From a virus, in the IMG/VR virus record IMGVR_UViG_3300047563_000187, positions 62,001-126,000 of that record: a stretch of 64,000 bases of DNA. One strand, given 5' to 3'. The notes beneath the pieces were generated by a model. The model was not told the origin of the DNA. It made no database searches and worked only from the letters and a program-made list of their open reading frames with translations. This document shows, piece after piece, positions 1 to 7,099 of this stretch (its first letter is position 1; the number at the start of each line of letters is the position of its first letter). Position numbers and translations under genes: made by a program.

Positions 1-612
1 CATGGCCCATTCAAGTTGGTTACTACGAAGCCAAAGCTGCTCGAGAGTGTTCGAGACTGACTTACTGGTGCCGGCCATAACTTTGAAGCCATGGTCAGAG
101 GCGTTAAGGATTTCGAAGATTGGTGGTAGGGCATCGAAGGAGATGTCCTGTACTTCGTCTACAGTCAGAAGGTCCGCCATGATACCACGAATACGGTCCG
201 CATCAGATTCAGTCTGAGCGTAGGACAGGTAAATCGTGGAGCCGTTGGAGAAGCTCTTTTCGTAAACGTTACGGGAAGTACCGGTGGAGCGGAAGTACTT
301 CTTCACCAAAGGGCTGTCCATGAAGCTATCCAGATAGGCGTTCGAGAAACGCTTGGCCTGAATCTGGAATGGTGCAATGTACAGCGAGTTGAAGTACGGC
401 AACGCAATACTCTTAGACACCAAGCGGCCACCGAGAGATACGGACTTACCGATCTGACGGCCAGCCTTGAACACCATCAACTCCGGGTCGATGTCATAGA
501 TCGCCCGGAAGGGTTCGTACTGGTCGAATCGTAGCGGATATCCCTTCAGCTCCAGCAGGGATGCTGCTAGCTGTGAGGCCGTGGCGATACGAACGCTTTT
601 CTGTTTAATCAT
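1..612 (-). CDS. terL: Terminase large subunit, N-terminal ATPase part (cut by window edge)
   Basis: This is the motor that translocates phage DNA into the prohead. The 204 visible residues begin at an ATG at 612 preceded by AAGGAGAA. They show a Walker A motif AGRQIGKS near residue 52 and a Walker B motif LLTVDEVQD near residue 151, the ATPase signature of tailed-phage terminases. The frame is open to base 1, so the rest of the ATPase and the nuclease domain lie outside the window. It is transcribed away from the ubiquitin-like cassette, with about 180 bases of promoter-like sequence between them. The assignment rests on motif order and spacing; a different phage P-loop ATPase is possible but unlikely. 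Confidence 0.85.
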   Translation of the reverse strand, partial: MIKQKSVRIATASQLAASLLELKGYPLRFDQYEPFRAIYDIDPELMVFKAGRQIGKSVSLGGRLVSKSIALPYFNSLYIAPFQIQAKRFSNAYLDSFMDSPLVKKYFRSTGTSRNVYEKSFSNGSTIYLSYAQTESDADRIRGIMADLLTVDEVQDISFDALPPIFEILNASDHGFKVMAGTSKSVSNTLEQLWLRSNQLEWAM

Positions 613-792: not shown

Positions 793-1173
793 ATGTCTAT
801 TACCTCTACCGTAGTTAAGATCCAAGGCCAAGCCGATGTAACCCTGCCGCTGGTTCTGACCGCTCAGGAAGTCATCGCCCAGATGACCAGCCAGGATCTG
901 AACGGTATGAACAACAGCACTTCCGAGTCCGGCTCCGTGCGTACCATCACCTTCACCAAGCGTACCGGTACCAAGGGCGCCGAGATCACCAGCACCGTGC
1001 TGAAGATCGAAGGCTACTCCGACGTGACCCTGCCGATGGCCCTGACCCTGGAGTCTGCTCGTGAGCAGTACCGCTCCGTGGATCTGTCCGGCTACAACGC
1101 CAACGTGACCGAAGACGGCTCTGTCCGTACTCTGTCCTTCACCAAGCGTACTGGTACCAAAGGTAACGATTAA
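793..1173 (+). CDS. Tandem ubiquitin-like modifier precursor (PRTRC protein C-like)
   Basis: The 126-residue protein is two copies of a roughly 60-residue unit. Each runs from ITSTV.KI through DVTLP..LT to GSVRT..FTKRTGTKG. Copy 1 ends at Gly62 and is followed by AE; copy 2 ends at Gly124 and is followed by ND. A GTKG end is what I recall for PRTRC system protein C, a predicted ubiquitin-like protein. Cleavage after each Gly would release two modifiers with a free C-terminal glycine, ready for adenylation. The genes downstream encode the peptidase (3311-4681), E1-like (4685-5827) and E2-like (2628-3305) partners. The start ATG at 793 has an AGGAGAAATGCC leader. The repeat and the tails are seen; the fold and the processing are inferred. 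Confidence 0.75.
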   Translation: MSITSTVVKIQGQADVTLPLVLTAQEVIAQMTSQDLNGMNNSTSESGSVRTITFTKRTGTKGAEITSTVLKIEGYSDVTLPMALTLESAREQYRSVDLSGYNANVTEDGSVRTLSFTKRTGTKGND

Positions 1174-1199
1174 GTTACCTCTGGCCGGTGCCAAAAACG

Positions 1200-1227
1200 G
1201 GGAGCCTTCGGGCTCCCTATTTTTTTA
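1200..1227 (+). terminator. Rho-independent terminator after the ubiquitin-like gene
   Basis: A 7-bp GGGAGCC/GGCTCCC stem with a TTCG loop is followed by a seven-T run. It separates the modifier gene from the enzyme genes, so the modifier may be made in excess and the enzymes by read-through. Confidence 0.9.
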
Positions 1228-1247
1228 GTCTCTGCAGAGAGGTTTCT

Positions 1248-2429
1248 ATGTACTTCTGCTATACGAAAGAGTTTGATATTAGCAGAGCAAGAGCTAACGG
1301 AGTTCCTCGGATCAGCAGCGTATCTCTGGCTACCTTCGGCAGCTGGCAGGTATCTCGCACCCCATCCCCAGAGCACTACGGATTCATCAACTCGCCATCA
1401 CTTGAAGAAGGTCTTAAAGACTTCCTCAATTATGGCTTTGAGGAACTTCGTAAGGTTGAGTTCACAGACTTAGCCGACGGGGAAGTAGAGAACTTCCAAC
1501 GGATGATTGCGATTGACATCCAGAACATCTGTAAGGAGTTCTTACAACAGTCTGATGATAGCGGTTGTTTTTCAATAATCAACGTGATTCAGACGGCACT
1601 GAACGACCTGTACGAAAAACTTGGAGTATCCAGCGGGCCATTCATCATCTCACACCCTCCGGTAACTACTGGAGCCCTGCGAGATTTGGTTCGTGGAATT
1701 ATCTCCAACGCATCTACTGGTATGCGTAAGTTCTTTCCTCCGCGTATTGCGTCGGAAACTACCATGCAGACCTGCCGTCCAATGATCAACACGCATCGCT
1801 TCGAGAGCTCAGAAGGATTTCAGCATTCCATCATCAAATCGCTGCGTCATGGCCCTACTTTGGAAGCCTTAGAATATGTCGGTGAAGATGATGTAATCTC
1901 GCTGAACGGGTTCGAAATCGATCTCGATGATACTCCGCTGACTCGCCGATATGTGCGGTTCATCCAGCATTTGGCACATAAATACTCCCCGTATCGCCTG
2001 CAGGTTCGCCTGCATAGCCAATCCAGGAGTATTCGTATAATGCCACTCATCGAGCAGGATTACATTATCGAGGCAGCGTTCGAACGCTTCCGCGGTCACA
2101 TCCCTTGTGAGTTGCCGGAAGATCTTCCTTTAGAAGACAAATTGGTCTTGAGCTTTATGGTCATCTCTCAGATGAACCTAGCTCCGCGGTGGCCAATAAC
2201 TATCACAGACGCGGACTACCACGAGTACAACCGTGCTGCTATGGTAGAACGCCTGAGTCGTGTAGGCACTGAGGTTAATCTCACACCTATAGATATGACT
2301 CATATCTTCAACCACATCATGCCCCATCTGGTGGAGGTAATATGGTCCATAGGCAAGCTGAAATGGACGCACTTGCAATCAACTTCGCTGAACTTCCCGG
2401 AATTGGCGACGTTTACGCAGAACGCATAG
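1248..2429 (+). CDS. Unknown protein in the PRTRC F position
   Basis: This 393-residue protein starts at ATG 1248 behind AGAGAGG; an upstream in-frame start at 1188 lies inside the terminator and is rejected. I recognise no domain, signal peptide or membrane segment. It sits between the ubiquitin-like gene and the E2-like gene. In the PRTRC order as I remember it (C, F, B, A, ThiF) this slot is held by protein F, so it may be the equivalent, but I cannot show sequence similarity. Its last 88 bases overlap the next gene in another frame. It could be a specificity or adaptor factor for conjugation. Confidence 0.7.
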   Translation: MYFCYTKEFDISRARANGVPRISSVSLATFGSWQVSRTPSPEHYGFINSPSLEEGLKDFLNYGFEELRKVEFTDLADGEVENFQRMIAIDIQNICKEFLQQSDDSGCFSIINVIQTALNDLYEKLGVSSGPFIISHPPVTTGALRDLVRGIISNASTGMRKFFPPRIASETTMQTCRPMINTHRFESSEGFQHSIIKSLRHGPTLEALEYVGEDDVISLNGFEIDLDDTPLTRRYVRFIQHLAHKYSPYRLQVRLHSQSRSIRIMPLIEQDYIIEAAFERFRGHIPCELPEDLPLEDKLVLSFMVISQMNLAPRWPITITDADYHEYNRAAMVERLSRVGTEVNLTPIDMTHIFNHIMPHLVEVIWSIGKLKWTHLQSTSLNFPELATFTQNA

Positions 2430-2620
2430 GTCAGGCTATCGATGATATGGTCTCTCGCATTGGGGGTATCAACTTCGAGGATCGTGCGTATGTCCATGCG
2501 TTATCTATCAATCACATCAGACAGCGTCGTAACGTGCAGATCAACCGGGTCATACCGGTAGAGCAGCGTTTGAACTTCCGGGCCTACCGTCCGGTAATGT
2601 CTGGCATCGTTTTCATCTGA
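2342..2620 (+). CDS. Small unknown protein in the conjugation cassette
   Basis: The 92-residue product starts at ATG 2342, inside the end of the preceding gene, behind a strong GGTGGAGG site ending eight bases before the ATG. The stretch LPGIGDVYAERI resembles a helix-hairpin-helix turn, but one short motif is weak evidence. It ends seven bases before the E2-like gene, so it is co-expressed with the cassette. It could alternatively extend the upstream protein by a frameshift; the good ribosome site makes a separate gene more likely. Confidence 0.6.
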   Translation: MVHRQAEMDALAINFAELPGIGDVYAERIGQAIDDMVSRIGGINFEDRAYVHALSINHIRQRRNVQINRVIPVEQRLNFRAYRPVMSGIVFI

Positions 2621-2627
2621 GGTATCT

Positions 2628-3305
2628 ATGATCGTAGAACTCAAACCCAACGGGGTCCTCGTGGACAATGGCCTCGGTGGCAAGAAGGTCATTTCATATG
2701 AATCCTTCATCGCCGAAATTGCCAAGATGGCAACTGAAGATACTGCCGCTATGGTGCGTACCTTAGGTCTGCCGGAGGGTGCATATGTGCTGGCTCAGAA
2801 TGGTCGTGAAGCGACTATCGGCATGTACTACCCCTCTCGTCGTGCCACTCTGGACTTCAGCGGTACCAAATTCAAGGACGTCCTGTTGCCCAACGTGGTA
2901 ATCATGGTCGGCCTTACCAACTTCGGCGTAGACGGTGACTTTGCCATCCTGGATGGCATTCACTGGTTCTGTACCGATCTCCCTCTGGCGATCATGCCGC
3001 GGGTTACTTTCCGTAGCCTGAATGATCTGCCAGAAGGCCTTGCTGGTCACGTATGGTGCCTGCCGTTCCCCAATATGTATTCGGGGATGGGCTGCTCCAT
3101 GTGTACTGGCAGCAACAGCTTCATTAGCCGCTTCCCAGATAACCAACTGGCAGGCATCTCCTCTTACTATAACGATCTGTTCATCGGTAGTCGCTTTAAC
3201 AACGACTTGGGCCAGTGGATGATTGAGAATGGCAGAGGCTGGCCTGAATGGTTGCGTGAACTGGCGGCTGCTGAAGAATTTCCCTACAATAGACTGCGGA
3301 GTTAA
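2628..3305 (+). CDS. E2-like conjugating protein (PRTRC protein B-like)
   Basis: The 225-residue protein matches the length and late signature of PRTRC system protein B as I recall it: LPFPNMY, then MCTG, then LFIGSRF, near residues 145-190. PRTRC B has been proposed to have an E2-like fold. Candidate thioester cysteines are C156 and C159 in GCSMCTG; C159, in the Cys-x-Gly context, fits the family pattern best. C115 and C144 are other cysteines. By its neighbours it should receive the modifier from the E1-like enzyme at 4685-5827. It ends five bases before the JAMM gene. The E2 role is inferred; no biochemical motif proves it. Confidence 0.65.
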   Translation: MIVELKPNGVLVDNGLGGKKVISYESFIAEIAKMATEDTAAMVRTLGLPEGAYVLAQNGREATIGMYYPSRRATLDFSGTKFKDVLLPNVVIMVGLTNFGVDGDFAILDGIHWFCTDLPLAIMPRVTFRSLNDLPEGLAGHVWCLPFPNMYSGMGCSMCTGSNSFISRFPDNQLAGISSYYNDLFIGSRFNNDLGQWMIENGRGWPEWLRELAAAEEFPYNRLRS

Positions 3306-3310
3306 GTCTG

Positions 3311-4681
3311 ATGATCAATATCACTCTGTTCGAATCCCTGGTAACCGAGCGTGACTTCCTGGATAAGAAGTTCCCGGACCATCACAACGTGATCAACGTA
3401 CTGGCAAACGATGGCAAGCTCTACCGCTACCATCGCTATGCCGGTGAGCGTGAGCTCCTGACGAAGATCGCCGAAACCCCCATCCGTTTCGTCGATAAGA
3501 CTCAGCTCGTAGAGCGTCGTCAAATCGTGCCGGGCGGAGTGCGTGTTCCGATGCAGCTGTTGAAAGACATCGAGAACTTCTTCCGTGCCTTCATGATCAA
3601 GAACGTGACCTCCGCTGCCGGGTATCGCCCGGGCCACGGTGACTACGAGGCTATGGCCTTGATCCTGTACAACCTGGATACACAGCAGTATCGCGTATCC
3701 ATCCCTACCCAGAAAGTCTCCAAAGCATCTGTGTCCTATGACATCGATGACAAGGCTGACAACGAGATCGTGGTAGTGGATATCCACAGCCACAACTCTA
3801 TGGGTGCCTTCTTCTCCGGTGTGGATGATCGTGATGATCGCTCCGGTGCTTGGGTGACGGGCGTACTGGGTAAATTGGATCAGCCAGAGTTCGCCTCGGT
3901 ATGGCGTTTCAACGCCGGTGCTACCAAGGTTCAGCTGACCATCGCTGACATCTTCGAAACCCCGACCATCACCGCTAACCCGGTTGATCAGGCCTGGATG
4001 GACAAGGTGCAAGTAGGCTACTCCAGCTACGGTGGTACTCCGTACTACCAGCGTCCGGTAGGCGGTGCCCAAGTGGGTAACTCCAAAGTAGGGGGTGCCC
4101 AGGTGGGAAACCACAACTTTCAATCCGAAGCCAAAAGCCCCCGCATCTACGGTGCTGAGGTTGGAGGACTTGGTGGGGGAAAATCACAAGGGGGGTTCGG
4201 AAAAAACCCAGCTGGATTCCCCGTTGAAAGTGACTTCTTCGACCAAGAAGCCTACGAAGAACTCATGGACATGCTGGGTGTCGACGGCTTGGGCTCACGC
4301 CTGGACTTGGATGACGACATCCCTTTCGAGGAGGACGAAGTAGTTGGTGAGGCCGATGCTTCTCTCGTCCGTCAAATTGACAAACTTCTCGGCCGAATCG
4401 AAAACGAGCACGCCTATGGGCTCGTAGTGGAGAACATCGTTCAGTACGTGACCGATGAAGCTGTCCTGGTGGATATGGCGGGAGAAGTAGTAGACCGCAT
4501 CACCGATGGCATCCCGGATCTGACTGAGCGTGGTATCTACGTCATCACCGATCCTGAGCAAGTAGTAGATGCTATGGCCGACATGTGCGGCGAGTATCTG
4601 CATGCTGATCAAATTGCTACTGCGTTCAATGAGATCTCAGAAGCTCAGGGTGTCCTCTACACATACACTCCCAAGGAGTAA
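3311..4681 (+). CDS. JAMM/MPN+ metalloprotease (PRTRC protein A-like)
   Basis: A JAB-family zinc isopeptidase is indicated by a perfect JAMM motif: E113, then H159-S-H161, seven residues, S169-x-x-D172. Enzymes of this family trim ubiquitin-like precursors and remove the modifier from targets. The 456-residue protein is longer than a lone JAB domain. Residues about 250-305 are a Gly/Gln/Asn-rich linker with VGGAQVGN twice, and an acidic C-terminal region follows (residues about 310-456). The linker may let the protease reach large substrates. It sits three bases upstream of the E1-like gene. The start ATG at 3311 lies just after the E2-like stop. Confidence 0.85.
   Translation: MINITLFESLVTERDFLDKKFPDHHNVINVLANDGKLYRYHRYAGERELLTKIAETPIRFVDKTQLVERRQIVPGGVRVPMQLLKDIENFFRAFMIKNVTSAAGYRPGHGDYEAMALILYNLDTQQYRVSIPTQKVSKASVSYDIDDKADNEIVVVDIHSHNSMGAFFSGVDDRDDRSGAWVTGVLGKLDQPEFASVWRFNAGATKVQLTIADIFETPTITANPVDQAWMDKVQVGYSSYGGTPYYQRPVGGAQVGNSKVGGAQVGNHNFQSEAKSPRIYGAEVGGLGGGKSQGGFGKNPAGFPVESDFFDQEAYEELMDMLGVDGLGSRLDLDDDIPFEEDEVVGEADASLVRQIDKLLGRIENEHAYGLVVENIVQYVTDEAVLVDMAGEVVDRITDGIPDLTERGIYVITDPEQVVDAMADMCGEYLHADQIATAFNEISEAQGVLYTYTPKE
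4063..4113 (+). repeat. Short in-frame repeat in the JAMM protease linker
   Basis: Two copies of a unit encoding VGGAQVGN lie about 30 bases apart inside the Gly-rich linker of the protease gene. They look like a small internal duplication. Confidence 0.6.
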
Positions 4682-4684
4682 AAG

Positions 4685-5827
4685 ATGTTTCACACTCGAT
4701 TCAACCGGATTGTGTCGAATGTGATCATCGTAGGTTGCGGCGGGACTGGTTCCCGCCTCATTCCTATGGTGGCACAGTTCATGAAAAGCTGCCCGGCTAT
4801 CCTCGATCCGTTCATCACCCTGATCGACGGGGATACAGTGGAGATGAAGAATCTGGCTCGTCAGAACTTCATCAAGCCGGATATCGGCCGTCACAAGTCC
4901 GAAGTGCTGGCGGAGCGTTATGGCGGGGCTATCGAAATCCCCATCGTATCTATCCCGGAATACTACCAGTACTCCAAGTACAAGGACTTCCGCGGCTGGC
5001 TGCAGAACCACTACTCGAAGCTGGATCCGAACCTGGCCAACCGTTCTGTCGGTAGCCCGATCGTCTTCTTCGCAGTGGACTCTATGCAGGCACGGATGGA
5101 GATCTTAGCAGGCATCATGTACTCTCGCTTCCGCAACCACACCTGGGCGTCTGTGATGCCCATCATCGTGGATGCCGGTAACGAGAATACCTTCGGCCAG
5201 GTTAGCGTGTATCACGCGGCTGTCGTACCTGATGATTCCCACTACCTCCATCATCGCCATGTAGAAGAGTTCATTCGCAGCTTCAACTCTCTGAGCACCA
5301 TCAAGAAGGGCTATGTTGGCGGCGATCTCAACTTCCCACTGCGTCCTGCTCCGGTAGACATGCTGGTATCTGCCCTGGAGAACCCCTCCGAGGCTGACGT
5401 ATCGTGTGCCGACTTGGATCAGACTGCTGCGATCAACGCTCAGATGGCTGTAGGTATGTTCACTGCATTCCAGAACATCTGTCTGAACCACAAGATGACG
5501 ATTCTGACTTCCTACTTCGATATTCATAATGGCAACAGTCAGACGAAGATCGATGATTGGCTGCTGAATCTGCCGGAAGAGGATCCCTCTAAAGGTGCTC
5601 GGGTGACCGCTGAGCGTATCGCCAAGGCATTGAAGAAGGCCCGTGATGTGAAGACTTTGGATAATGATTCTTCTGAGATGTGCCGCCTCCTGGCGTCAGG
5701 CACGGTCGATATGGATATGACCATTATCCGTGATGCCCGTCAGGTAGCCCAAGCGGCTATCAAAGATGGATCTATCTCCAAGCGTAACTTGGAGTTGGAA
5801 GCTCTGCTTAACGGCAGGGCAGCATAA
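4685..5827 (+). CDS. E1-like activating enzyme (ThiF/MoeB superfamily, PRTRC ThiF-like)
   Basis: E1-like enzymes adenylate the C-terminal glycine of a ubiquitin-like protein. The 380-residue product has the nucleotide-binding loop G17-CGGTG22, the LIDGDTVEMKNLARQ motif at residues 46-60 with Asp48/Asp50, Asn56 and Arg59, and a conserved Asp132 in FFAVD. C241, in VSCADLDQTAAIN, lies in the region where the catalytic cysteine of related enzymes is found. The gene closes the cassette and is followed by a terminator. The family call is firm; the identity of the catalytic cysteine is inferred. Confidence 0.88.
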   Translation: MFHTRFNRIVSNVIIVGCGGTGSRLIPMVAQFMKSCPAILDPFITLIDGDTVEMKNLARQNFIKPDIGRHKSEVLAERYGGAIEIPIVSIPEYYQYSKYKDFRGWLQNHYSKLDPNLANRSVGSPIVFFAVDSMQARMEILAGIMYSRFRNHTWASVMPIIVDAGNENTFGQVSVYHAAVVPDDSHYLHHRHVEEFIRSFNSLSTIKKGYVGGDLNFPLRPAPVDMLVSALENPSEADVSCADLDQTAAINAQMAVGMFTAFQNICLNHKMTILTSYFDIHNGNSQTKIDDWLLNLPEEDPSKGARVTAERIAKALKKARDVKTLDNDSSEMCRLLASGTVDMDMTIIRDARQVAQAAIKDGSISKRNLELEALLNGRAA

Positions 5828-5828
5828 G

Positions 5829-5853
5829 AAAAGGGCCCATTGGGCCCTTTTTT
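5829..5853. terminator. Bidirectional terminator between convergent units
   Basis: AAAAGGGCCC-ATT-GGGCCCTTTTTT forms a stem with A-rich and T-rich flanks. It can end the conjugation cassette on the plus strand and the fibre operon on the minus strand. Confidence 0.9.
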
Positions 5854-7099
5854 AGCTAGACTCGAGGTCCGTTCTACGTTCACGAGAGGAGACGTCAGGA
5901 GTATCCGTAATGGAGAATACTGCCGCTTCCAAACCGTGAGTATCGAACATAGTCAGAGTACCTGCACGCTTATCCCAGCTCCAAGAGCCCATAGCTTCGG
6001 CGTGAATATCCATGATCATGTCGATGACGTTAGATGGTACACCTTCAATACCTGCCAGAAGAGTCTTCAGCTCGTTTTGATCACTAGACATATGACCATG
6101 TACGCCTTCGATGGCGGACATAACGCCGGAGATCTGGCTACCAGTGCTCGCCATAACAGCCGATGCTTGATCTTGAACTACCTGATTGGTGTTAGTGAAA
6201 CGAGAATTTACGTTATCGAAAAGCCCATTCATGCTGCTTTGCATGCTGGAAATGTGAGAGTGTACACCATTGAACTGGGTATCAGACACATCCTTTACAG
6301 CGTCCACTTGGGCAATTACCAGGTCTACTTTGGCACCCACAGTTTGACTGGTGGAAGTCACGTTAGTGTCTACCGCAGTAACCTGCAGAGCAATAGCATC
6401 CAGCTTATCCAGAATATCCAGAATAGGAGACATGTCTACTGTGCCACCGCCGCAACCGCATCCACCACCATCTCCACTACCCTCGTAGTTATCAGGCACG
6501 AAGAACTTGAACACCTGTTTGGATTCGATCAGCTGAACACCCATAGAGGTATAGGTGAAGGTGTGCCCGCAGATTACGCGGATCTTCAGGAAGGTGTCGA
6601 TAGGCTGCTCTTCAATCACATGTACGTGGTTGAGCGTTAAGTCCCAAGGACGAGTATCGGAGTAGATCTCGCTGTTATGGTTGACCATAACGTGAGTATC
6701 CGGGTATGGCTTAGGGTTGTTCTCGTCGTCGATCACACCATCAGCACGGTATAGGACAAGCTCCCGGGAGCCACTGCCAGTGCGTGTGTTGTAGTGCATG
6801 TCGGTGAAGACTACTGGAGAGTCCAGCAGCCAGCCGCGGTGGTAAATAACGCCGAAAAAGCAGGTGTCGTAACCGCCTTCGATCTCCCAGTTAATCTGCA
6901 CGGTGTGCAGGTCGGTGTAGAAATCGGCCGGAATCCCATTGCCAAAGTTAGGGGTGTACTGAGAGACTGTTACACCTCGCTGGTACAGTTCGATCGTTGG
7001 CGGTTGGGAGATATCCAACGGCAGGATCATCTTGTACACCATCGCTTTGTAGTTAGCCACGTCGCCGTGAACGATGGGGTTAGATGCAATTAGCTTCAT
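5852..7099 (-). CDS. Putative fibre or virion structural protein with Gly/Cys hinge
   Basis: The 415-residue protein has a beta-rich N-terminal half (residues 1-210) and a short hinge, GGGCGCGGG, near residue 218. A long Ser/Thr/Val/Asp-rich segment of coiled-coil character follows, and then a compact end containing GSWSWDKRAGTLTMFD. That layout, shoulder, hinge, rod and tip, is typical of phage fibres, although no named family is recognised. It is last in a four-gene minus-strand operon and overlaps the preceding gene by four bases. Confidence 0.65.
   Translation of the reverse strand: MKLIASNPIVHGDVANYKAMVYKMILPLDISQPPTIELYQRGVTVSQYTPNFGNGIPADFYTDLHTVQINWEIEGGYDTCFFGVIYHRGWLLDSPVVFTDMHYNTRTGSGSRELVLYRADGVIDDENNPKPYPDTHVMVNHNSEIYSDTRPWDLTLNHVHVIEEQPIDTFLKIRVICGHTFTYTSMGVQLIESKQVFKFFVPDNYEGSGDGGGCGCGGGTVDMSPILDILDKLDAIALQVTAVDTNVTSTSQTVGAKVDLVIAQVDAVKDVSDTQFNGVHSHISSMQSSMNGLFDNVNSRFTNTNQVVQDQASAVMASTGSQISGVMSAIEGVHGHMSSDQNELKTLLAGIEGVPSNVIDMIMDIHAEAMGSWSWDKRAGTLTMFDTHGLEAAVFSITDTPDVSSRERRTDLESS

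Follow-up and report, generated by a model that had tools for sequence, protein, structure and literature searches.

What would a virus do with the genes for an apparently complete ubiquitin-like conjugation pathway? The question is raised by IMG/VR virus record IMGVR_UViG_3300047563_000187, of whose 175,261 bases we analysed bases 62001-126000 (64,000 nucleotides, hereafter the window). A 5-kb block on the plus strand, at window positions 793-5827, encodes a tandem ubiquitin-like protein (Ubl), an E2-like conjugating enzyme, a JAMM metallopeptidase, and an E1-like activating enzyme, together with two further proteins, F and S. In a clade of phages the cassette behaves as a core locus, passed on vertically and linked to the terminase gene terL. 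We are somewhat inclined to the view that it is a complete, reversible Ubl conjugation machine serving a core function of the phage itself, and not a captured defence island.

Proteins of the cassette

Six open reading frames (ORFs), all on the plus strand and with the coordinates given by a first-pass annotation made from the sequence alone, occupy the first 6 kb of the window, between the divergent terL and a convergent gene at 5852-7099, both on the minus strand. They are the Ubl gene (793-1173; 126 amino acids, aa), F (1248-2429; 393 aa), S (2342-2620; a 92-aa ORF that overlaps F), E2 (2628-3305; 225 aa), JAMM (3311-4681; 456 aa), and E1 (4685-5827; 380 aa). The annotation had recognised a tandem Ubl, an E2-like protein, a JAMM, an E1, and two further genes, now F and S; the ORFs, their motifs, the E2 and Ubl models, and recurrence in viral contigs bear this out.

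By profile, the identities of E1 and JAMM are clear. Both proteins match Pfam families above cut-off (ThiF and Prok-JAB, respectively), and both match NCBIfam profiles while missing the curated cut-offs: JAMM matches PRTRC_A (TIGR03735) with 67.2 bits (E 1.4e-18; cut-off 101.8), and E1 matches PRTRC_ThiF (TIGR03736) with 58.3 bits (E 7e-16; cut-off 144.75). The single ThiF match of E1 covers residues 11-182 of 380, and no other Pfam family, rhodanese included, scores over cut-off. The E1 motifs named by the annotation, GxGGxG and DGDxVxxxNLxRQ, are present as G17CGGTG22 and DGDTVEMKNLARQ (residues 48-60), and its perfect JAMM motif, HSH-x7-S-x2-D, is present as H159-S-H161-x7-S169-x2-D172, accompanied by E113. 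Across 126 JAMM sequences, E113, H161, and S169 are each kept in 124 and H159 and D172 in 125, the remainder being gaps. D48, D50, N56, and K71 of E1 are kept in 140 of 141 sequences (one gap), and C241, the candidate catalytic cysteine, in all 132 aligned (nine gaps).

Direct profile support for E2 was absent and for Ubl weak, so these two calls needed structure prediction and family alignments. E2 had no match in NCBIfam, Pfam, PHROGs, or PADLOC, and neither F nor S of the window had one in NCBIfam. PHROGs gave nothing under 0.05 for five of the six cassette proteins, E1 matching only a weak family of unknown function (8.2e-4), and alignments of Ubl, E2, and JAMM searched against the sequences of solved structures gave no relevant match. 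The AlphaFold2 model of E2, built from a 42-row alignment, had a predicted local distance difference test (pLDDT) score of 91.2. VIA-align, used as a second look at the 1000 best chains from Foldseek with the best 50 rows considered, placed E2 enzymes (Ubc2/Rad6, UBE2A, Pex4, Cdc34, Ubc12, UFC1, and others) at all of ranks 1-23; the best match had Z 4.8 over 115 aligned residues (root mean square deviation 3.8), and the first row from another family came at Z 3.2, tied with the preceding two UFC1 rows. The model thus points to an E2 (UBC) fold for the 225-residue protein, as the annotation had proposed, although the match is modest. The sequence pattern is more telling than the structural match. 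All 128 aligned sequences have Cys159 and Asn149, and 110 of the 128 have the spacing N-x7-C, for example PFPNQYGDGNMCVG in Salmonella phage Arash, which this genome resembles (72.6% in TerL, 77% in the major capsid protein, 67% in the compared part of RNA polymerase beta). E2 enzymes typically show an HPN...C pattern, which N-x7-C follows.

Several points weigh against the E2 call. A Z of 4.8 is middling by the tool's scale and may reflect only a common arrangement, and Foldseek itself returned no match at E ≤ 0.001 and no E2 among its best 50 rows. The window protein has N-x9-C (as PFPN-x9-C), unlike the 110 sequences with N-x7-C; FNNDL replaces FTHPN, a motif found in 17 of the 128, and the downstream His of PRTRC E2s and of those in class 6d (discussed below) is lacking.

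Ubl consists of two repeats that are 59% identical to each other, the first (793-978; 62 aa) ending in RTGTKG and the second (979-1173) in RTGTKG followed by ND and the stop codon. Its AlphaFold2 model (pLDDT 89.1) has the strand and helix order β-β-α-β-β with a loose tail, which places the fold in the β-grasp class and allows no finer assignment; a Ubl fold for the 126-residue protein, also proposed at first pass, survives with a modest match. The match to PRTRC_C (TIGR03738) was 13.8 bits (E 0.048), short of the cut-off of 45.95, and a below-cut-off Pfam match to Reprolysin_4 (0.0064) was taken as chance. Counting against a closer identification, Foldseek gave no match at E ≤ 0.001, the top VIA-align rows were the Dvl DIX domain and protein G (Z ≤ 5.4) with MoaD (6jc0) at Z 4.8, and no ubiquitin stood among the best 50. 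The non-significant Foldseek rows include a diubiquitin-derived binder, SUMO, NEDD8, ISG15, and protein G.

An iterated profile collected 100 distinct Ubl ORFs near such cassettes (E ≤ 0.01), with one domain in 88, two in seven, three in two, and four, five, and six in one each; one of the three-domain ORFs, from Bacillus phage KLEB27-3, is cut by the edge of its locus, and the full gene has four. Among the 123 domains, 121 end in xxKG and 97 of these in GTKG, a count that depends on the search because the profile was seeded with such tails; 35 of the 100 ORFs stop right there. Within 7 of 12 multi-copy arrays the copies are 89-100% identical, as in polyubiquitin. Genes of this kind carry six near-identical repeats in one relative (L145:1764-2843), which matches Pfam Prok_Ub at 5.9e-30, and four in KLEB27-3 (L010:931-1680).

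Linkage to terL and distribution among viruses

The annotation had pointed out that conjugation operons of this kind are known as bacterial antiphage or plasmid-type systems, and had raised a counter-defence, virion-modification, or regulatory role. The first related loci had been found by the cassette itself, so an independent search was made with TerL in place of the cassette genes. It returned 55 loci, of which 33 were counted, the others having less than 8 kb upstream or being exact repeats of a counted or shorter locus. Where TerL identity was at least 44% and at least 8 kb lay upstream, E1, JAMM, E2, and Ubl stood divergent from terL in 23 of 24 distinct loci, JAMM being interrupted in two of them (L201 and L231). 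The cassette was in none of the nine distinct loci with TerL identity of 33% or less. The effective sample is smaller than this, because many of the contigs found through TerL were already known from the cassette and the 24 include a few near-identical loci. Uncounted loci with terL at 44% or more include three with all three enzymes (L193, L206, and L194) and three, with less than 1 kb upstream, in which none of the three was seen (L203, L208, and L219). Among isolates, the four records with TerL at 52% or more are the same four that gave close E1, JAMM, and E2 matches, a comparison that covers the four closest TerL records and not the 68 more distant ones.

The histories of the genes agree. 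Distances for terL and for the cassette genes are correlated over 18 loci (Mantel r 0.94 for E1, 0.92 for JAMM, and 0.86 for E2; 0 of 2000 permutations), and all six genes are under purifying selection, with ratios of nonsynonymous to synonymous substitution (dN/dS) of 0.09-0.28 in three close pairs, compared with 0.02-0.08 for TerL, some dS values being near saturation. The locus thus looks vertically inherited and linked to terL, not captured, and its core status speaks for a basic phage function. On the other side, the 24th locus (L230; terL 44%) shows just Ubl at the edge of the flank, its enzymes lying beyond the fetched sequence; in Vibrio phage D69 the distance between terL and cassette is about 8.6 kb if the record is closed end to end; and evolution is faster in the cassette than in terL, as would also fit a role directed at the host.

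Scans of viral contigs with alignments covered the best 80 of 91 relatives for E1 and the best 80 of 104 for JAMM; alignments were needed, since a single E1 protein as query against viral contigs yielded four candidates and none was confirmed. At least 170 loci, repeat contigs included, had any match. E1, E2, and JAMM occur together in 134 and, with F and S as well, in 17 (10 distinct); 10 loci have E1 and JAMM, eight E1 and E2, and one E1 alone. The six-gene order is kept in 10 close phages. The order E2-JAMM-E1 is found in 112 of the 119 distinct loci with three plus-strand enzymes, 95 of which have Ubl upstream and 82 an intervening ORF of at least 200 aa. Against this, no Ubl was detected upstream of E2 in 24 of the 119, in some because the contig ends. 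Arash and Vibrio D69, D181, and D148 are phage records, whereas some of the short IMG/VR contigs may come from plasmids or from temperate phages. The same array recurs in many viral contigs, and its occurrence here is not due to chance.

Some relatives depart from this plan. In a variant set (L132, L133, L135, L139, L141, L143, and L155) the E2 profile matches proteins of about 800-860 aa, and two E1-like ORFs follow JAMM. In four loci (L007:2170-4196, L201:5986-6320, L206:5784-6902, and L231:5769-6887) the JAMM gene is broken at the HSH motif or no more than a few codons away from it. The insert in Acinetobacter phage ME3 (L007) contains a group I intron (Rfam, 81 bits) and a tRNA; Rfam found no intron at gathering score in the other three, and the inserts of L206 and L231 carry a 293-aa ORF on the opposite strand, possibly, at a guess, a homing endonuclease. 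E1 of Vibrio phage D69 (L002:8992-9978) has no ATG, GTG, or TTG before its conserved N terminus, and its annotated start is an internal ATG; translation may begin at a rare codon such as ATT.

The window holds the 5′ part of terL (1-612, minus strand), the complete 543-aa gene being L188:5982-7613; the full protein matches Pfam GpA_ATPase (2.6e-9) and the PHROG terminase large subunit family (6.9e-44). On the other side of the cassette, the 5852-7099 gene encodes a protein with weak matches to a tape-measure family and a Baculo_PEP_C match under its cut-off, and its C-terminal "GSWxWDK" segment adjoins the cassette in related phages. The Arash counterpart, gp245, is labelled a structural protein, and the C-terminal segment is there a separate 77-aa protein.

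Expression signals and the Arash virion

A likely promoter, TCAACA-16-TATAAT with the extended -10 element TGGTATAAT at 714-722, lies at 695-722 on the plus strand, and an AGGAG ribosome-binding site at 781-785 precedes Ubl. The promoter scan of the region gave three sites where 5.3 were expected by shuffling, which is not significant alone. In 19 of the 21 loci examined, however, the motif TGGTATAA precedes the Ubl start by 66-113 bases, compared with 231 of 10500 random stretches that contain it. Two loci (L016 and L099) lack the exact motif, and it was noticed in the same sequences in which it was then counted; both points weaken the case. Between Ubl and F a terminator-like hairpin followed by a T run, possibly an attenuator, lies at 1199-1218 on the plus strand. 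Such a hairpin was found in 17 of 25 loci examined and in all 10 of the closest group, and in 16 of 1000 single-base shuffles and 25 of 1000 random stretches. The eight loci that fail the strict scan count against it, though some show bulged hairpins by eye. Both sets of loci were hand-chosen (close phages and others) and are not the whole set of 95. An alternative GTG start for F at 1188 would give a 413-aa ORF; ATG 1248 is the likelier start because the GTG sits before the hairpin. Together, promoter and terminator may serve to keep Ubl abundant and the enzymes scarce.

The article on Arash (PMC10585845), in its part on the virion, reports 116 proteins from gradient-purified particles and labels these gene products structural proteins, while allowing that abundant enzymes may be carried over into the preparation. 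The paper counts 252 coding sequences, against 251 in the record. Shifting the numbering by one after gp239 agrees with the record labels in five of five cases (no offset, three of five; offset two, four of five) and also fits protein length best (Spearman 0.76, versus 0.42 and -0.10), so we read Gp247, Gp248, Gp249, and Gp251 of the table as E1, JAMM, E2, and F, with 3, 2, 5, and 2 unique peptides, respectively (PMC10585845, Table 2). With no offset the three enzymes would be Gp246, Gp247, and Gp248, which are also in the virion list (5, 3, and 2 unique peptides for E1, JAMM, and E2); that mapping would also list S (Gp249) and a wrong-frame gp251, but not F. By our mapping of the numbering, then, E1, E2, and JAMM are in the Arash virion list. 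The conserved Ubl ORF of Arash (L001:107-307) is unannotated, the record's gp251 (L001:102-320) being another frame there, and Ubl could not be found if the spectra were searched against that annotation. Trypsin, moreover, would leave a single glycine (+57.02) on lysine, which equals the carbamidomethyl mass, so that standard trypsin/iodoacetamide proteomics could hide conjugates.

Some of the evidence runs against a virion role. The proteome is large, unique peptides are few, and carry-over is possible; coverage of up to 100% with two unique peptides is not credible at face value. The motif TGGTATAA occurs six times on the plus strand of the window (714, 9887, 16593, 49471, 49934, and 51074) and never on the minus strand, and it is absent before the minus-strand structural genes; in the whole record its near form is found six times against once by strand, compared with three and three for a backwards control. 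The motif may mark one promoter class of the phage, and its restriction to the plus strand of the window suggests that the cassette may not follow late transcription.

A different reading is a role directed at the host, in which the phage tags host proteins for takeover or counter-defence, or JAMM strips host-made Ubl tags from virions. The faster evolution of the cassette relative to terL would fit, as would a sigma70-type extended -10 motif in common with other plus-strand places. Bil acts on phages, and host Ubl systems of this kind are known (the Bil operon is described in part of PMC11354881). A stripping enzyme alone, however, would need no Ubl, E1, and E2 of its own, and the cassette's presence in 23 of 24 distinct terL loci is not patchy, as counter-defence genes, to our knowledge, usually are. 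We consider a host-directed role possible but rather unlikely.

Relation to known systems and proposed role

Ubl-type chemistry is common to the cassette and to bacterial systems such as Bil and CBASS Cap2, as described in parts of PMC11354881 and PMC12355090. In CBASS Cap2, E1 and E2 are fused, whereas the cassette has a separate 380-aa E1 and an E2 in its own ORF. Bil E1 has an inactive and an active adenylation domain; the cassette E1 shows one ThiF match. Bacterial Ubl-E1-E2-JAMM operons are discussed in part of the 2006 survey of Iyer (PMC1779556) as mobile regulatory, addiction, or protection modules, a proposal that would favour defence against other phages or superinfection exclusion. 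For the cassette this is improbable, in that PADLOC gave just weak E1-E2 matches, for E1 alone, and the locus is vertical and terL-linked, unlike a site that holds variable cargo. Sulfur transfer or cofactor chemistry of the ThiS/MoaD kind, without protein conjugation, is suggested by a ThiF-like E1, a β-grasp carrier, and the MoaD entry among the fold matches, but is very improbable, since the features of conjugation are all there: tandem precursors, a JAMM, and an E2 in which the Asn is HPN-like and the Cys invariant.

The closest likeness is to PRTRC. On plasmids such as Polaromonas pPNAP01 (L180) the order is C-F-B-A-ThiF, the same as here, with F corresponding by position only and S added; PRTRC C has tails such as GTKG or GAKG, and B has a conserved N and C-x-G. 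The likeness in order had been noted at first pass and holds. Profile-profile comparison (hhalign) with plasmid and phage PRTRC sets linked Ubl to C (60.9%, E 8.2e-5), E2 to B (85%, E 5.9e-6), JAMM to A (97%), and E1 to ThiF (99.8%), which indicates homology for these four; F against F gave 0.07%, and every other pairing less than 1%. The phage cassette differs in the small ORF between F and E2, tandem Ubls, an E2 without FTHPN, and linkage to terL. Protein E was found in none of nine phage records, a tally made meaningful only by the three of three positive controls that scored over cut-off; protein F was in none of seven, three control records giving matches and two of them over cut-off; and ParB was in none of nine, with matches in 8 of 14 control genomes, none over cut-off, these controls being without a PRTRC plasmid. 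F showed no homology to PRTRC_F or other middle proteins beyond a link of 34 columns with the next group of phages, and S none to the S-like ORFs of that group. Profile searches, which the annotation had proposed, thus tie C, B, A, and ThiF to the cassette, whereas the curated cut-offs were missed and ParB, E, and F did not appear; by these four marks the cassette is PRTRC-like but not PRTRC proper, and despite the shared order and profile links we give very little credence to the idea that the phage carries a true PRTRC system for plasmid stability.

Class 6d, as the relevant part of PMC1779556 describes it, comprises a Ubl with C-terminal Gly, an extra protein, an E2 Cys, a JAB with an N-terminal domain, and an E1 without rhodanese, each with a counterpart in the cassette (the E2 Cys being C159). 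The extra partner is largely α-helical there, and F stands in its place with no detectable homology; the N-terminal JAB domain has a conserved Arg and Trp, and the corresponding region of the cassette JAMM keeps R47 in three of three close sequences and has no invariant Trp. The cassette also lacks the downstream E2 His and has multi-copy Ubl and a viral core locus. PRTRC and class 6d are probably the same class; we file the cassette as a new phage-core variant because it fails the PRTRC features and the class 6d E2 histidine.

Other phages carry related sets. Burkholderia phage BgVeeders33 (L005) encodes Ubl, E2, JAMM, and E1 in the same order, but this phage measures 33 kb and has PRTRC proteins E and F, both over cut-off, beside its set (L005:453-4939). 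The large phages Bacillus KLEB27-3 and Acinetobacter ME3 have Ubl, JAMM, and E1 together; KLEB27-3 adds an E2-like gene and the four-copy Ubl, the middle protein of its group has no detectable homology to F, and the ME3 protein at the E2 place is unmatched by the E2 profile. The lambda/T1 tail assembly proteins TAPI-TAPK pair a phage Ubl with a JAB peptidase in the tail module, and the part of PMC1779556 that treats them lists no E1 or E2. No title among the matches listed in the open-licence PMC literature, preprints excluded, describes a phage Ubl/E1/E2/JAMM cassette.

That the cassette conjugates is highly likely; whether the main targets are the phage's own proteins is close to a coin toss. 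As a conjugation machine of the phage, it would work as follows. Ubl would be transcribed from its own promoter, and the terminator behind it would pass little RNA polymerase, leaving Ubl in excess over the enzymes. JAMM would cut behind every GTKG of the tandem precursor and so release monomers whose C-terminal glycine is free; E1 would adenylate that glycine with ATP and take Ubl on a cysteine, perhaps C241; Ubl would move to Cys159 of E2 and then to target lysines, with F and S perhaps choosing the targets, and JAMM would take it off again. We infer the JAMM, E1, and E2 steps from the intact catalytic motifs and the known chemistry of the families. As targets we would guess first at proteins of the phage itself (those of the virion or of assembly, or enzymes that are packaged) and next at host proteins.

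What is new is that the cassette behaves as part of the viral core, at a locus tied to the terminase gene. Only tentatively would we go further and propose Ubl signalling as a hallmark, possibly essential, module of the entire large-phage clade, with polyubiquitin-like precursor genes of one to five Ubls, an attenuation-driven excess of Ubl, and virion-carried enzymes delivered with the DNA that would tag phage or host proteins at the start of infection. The function of the PRTRC/6d class was posed as an open question in 2006, in the part of PMC1779556 concerned with it. Arash is an isolated, growable phage without apparent lysogeny genes, and a phage lineage with an apparently obligatory set and a published virion proteome makes that function directly testable.

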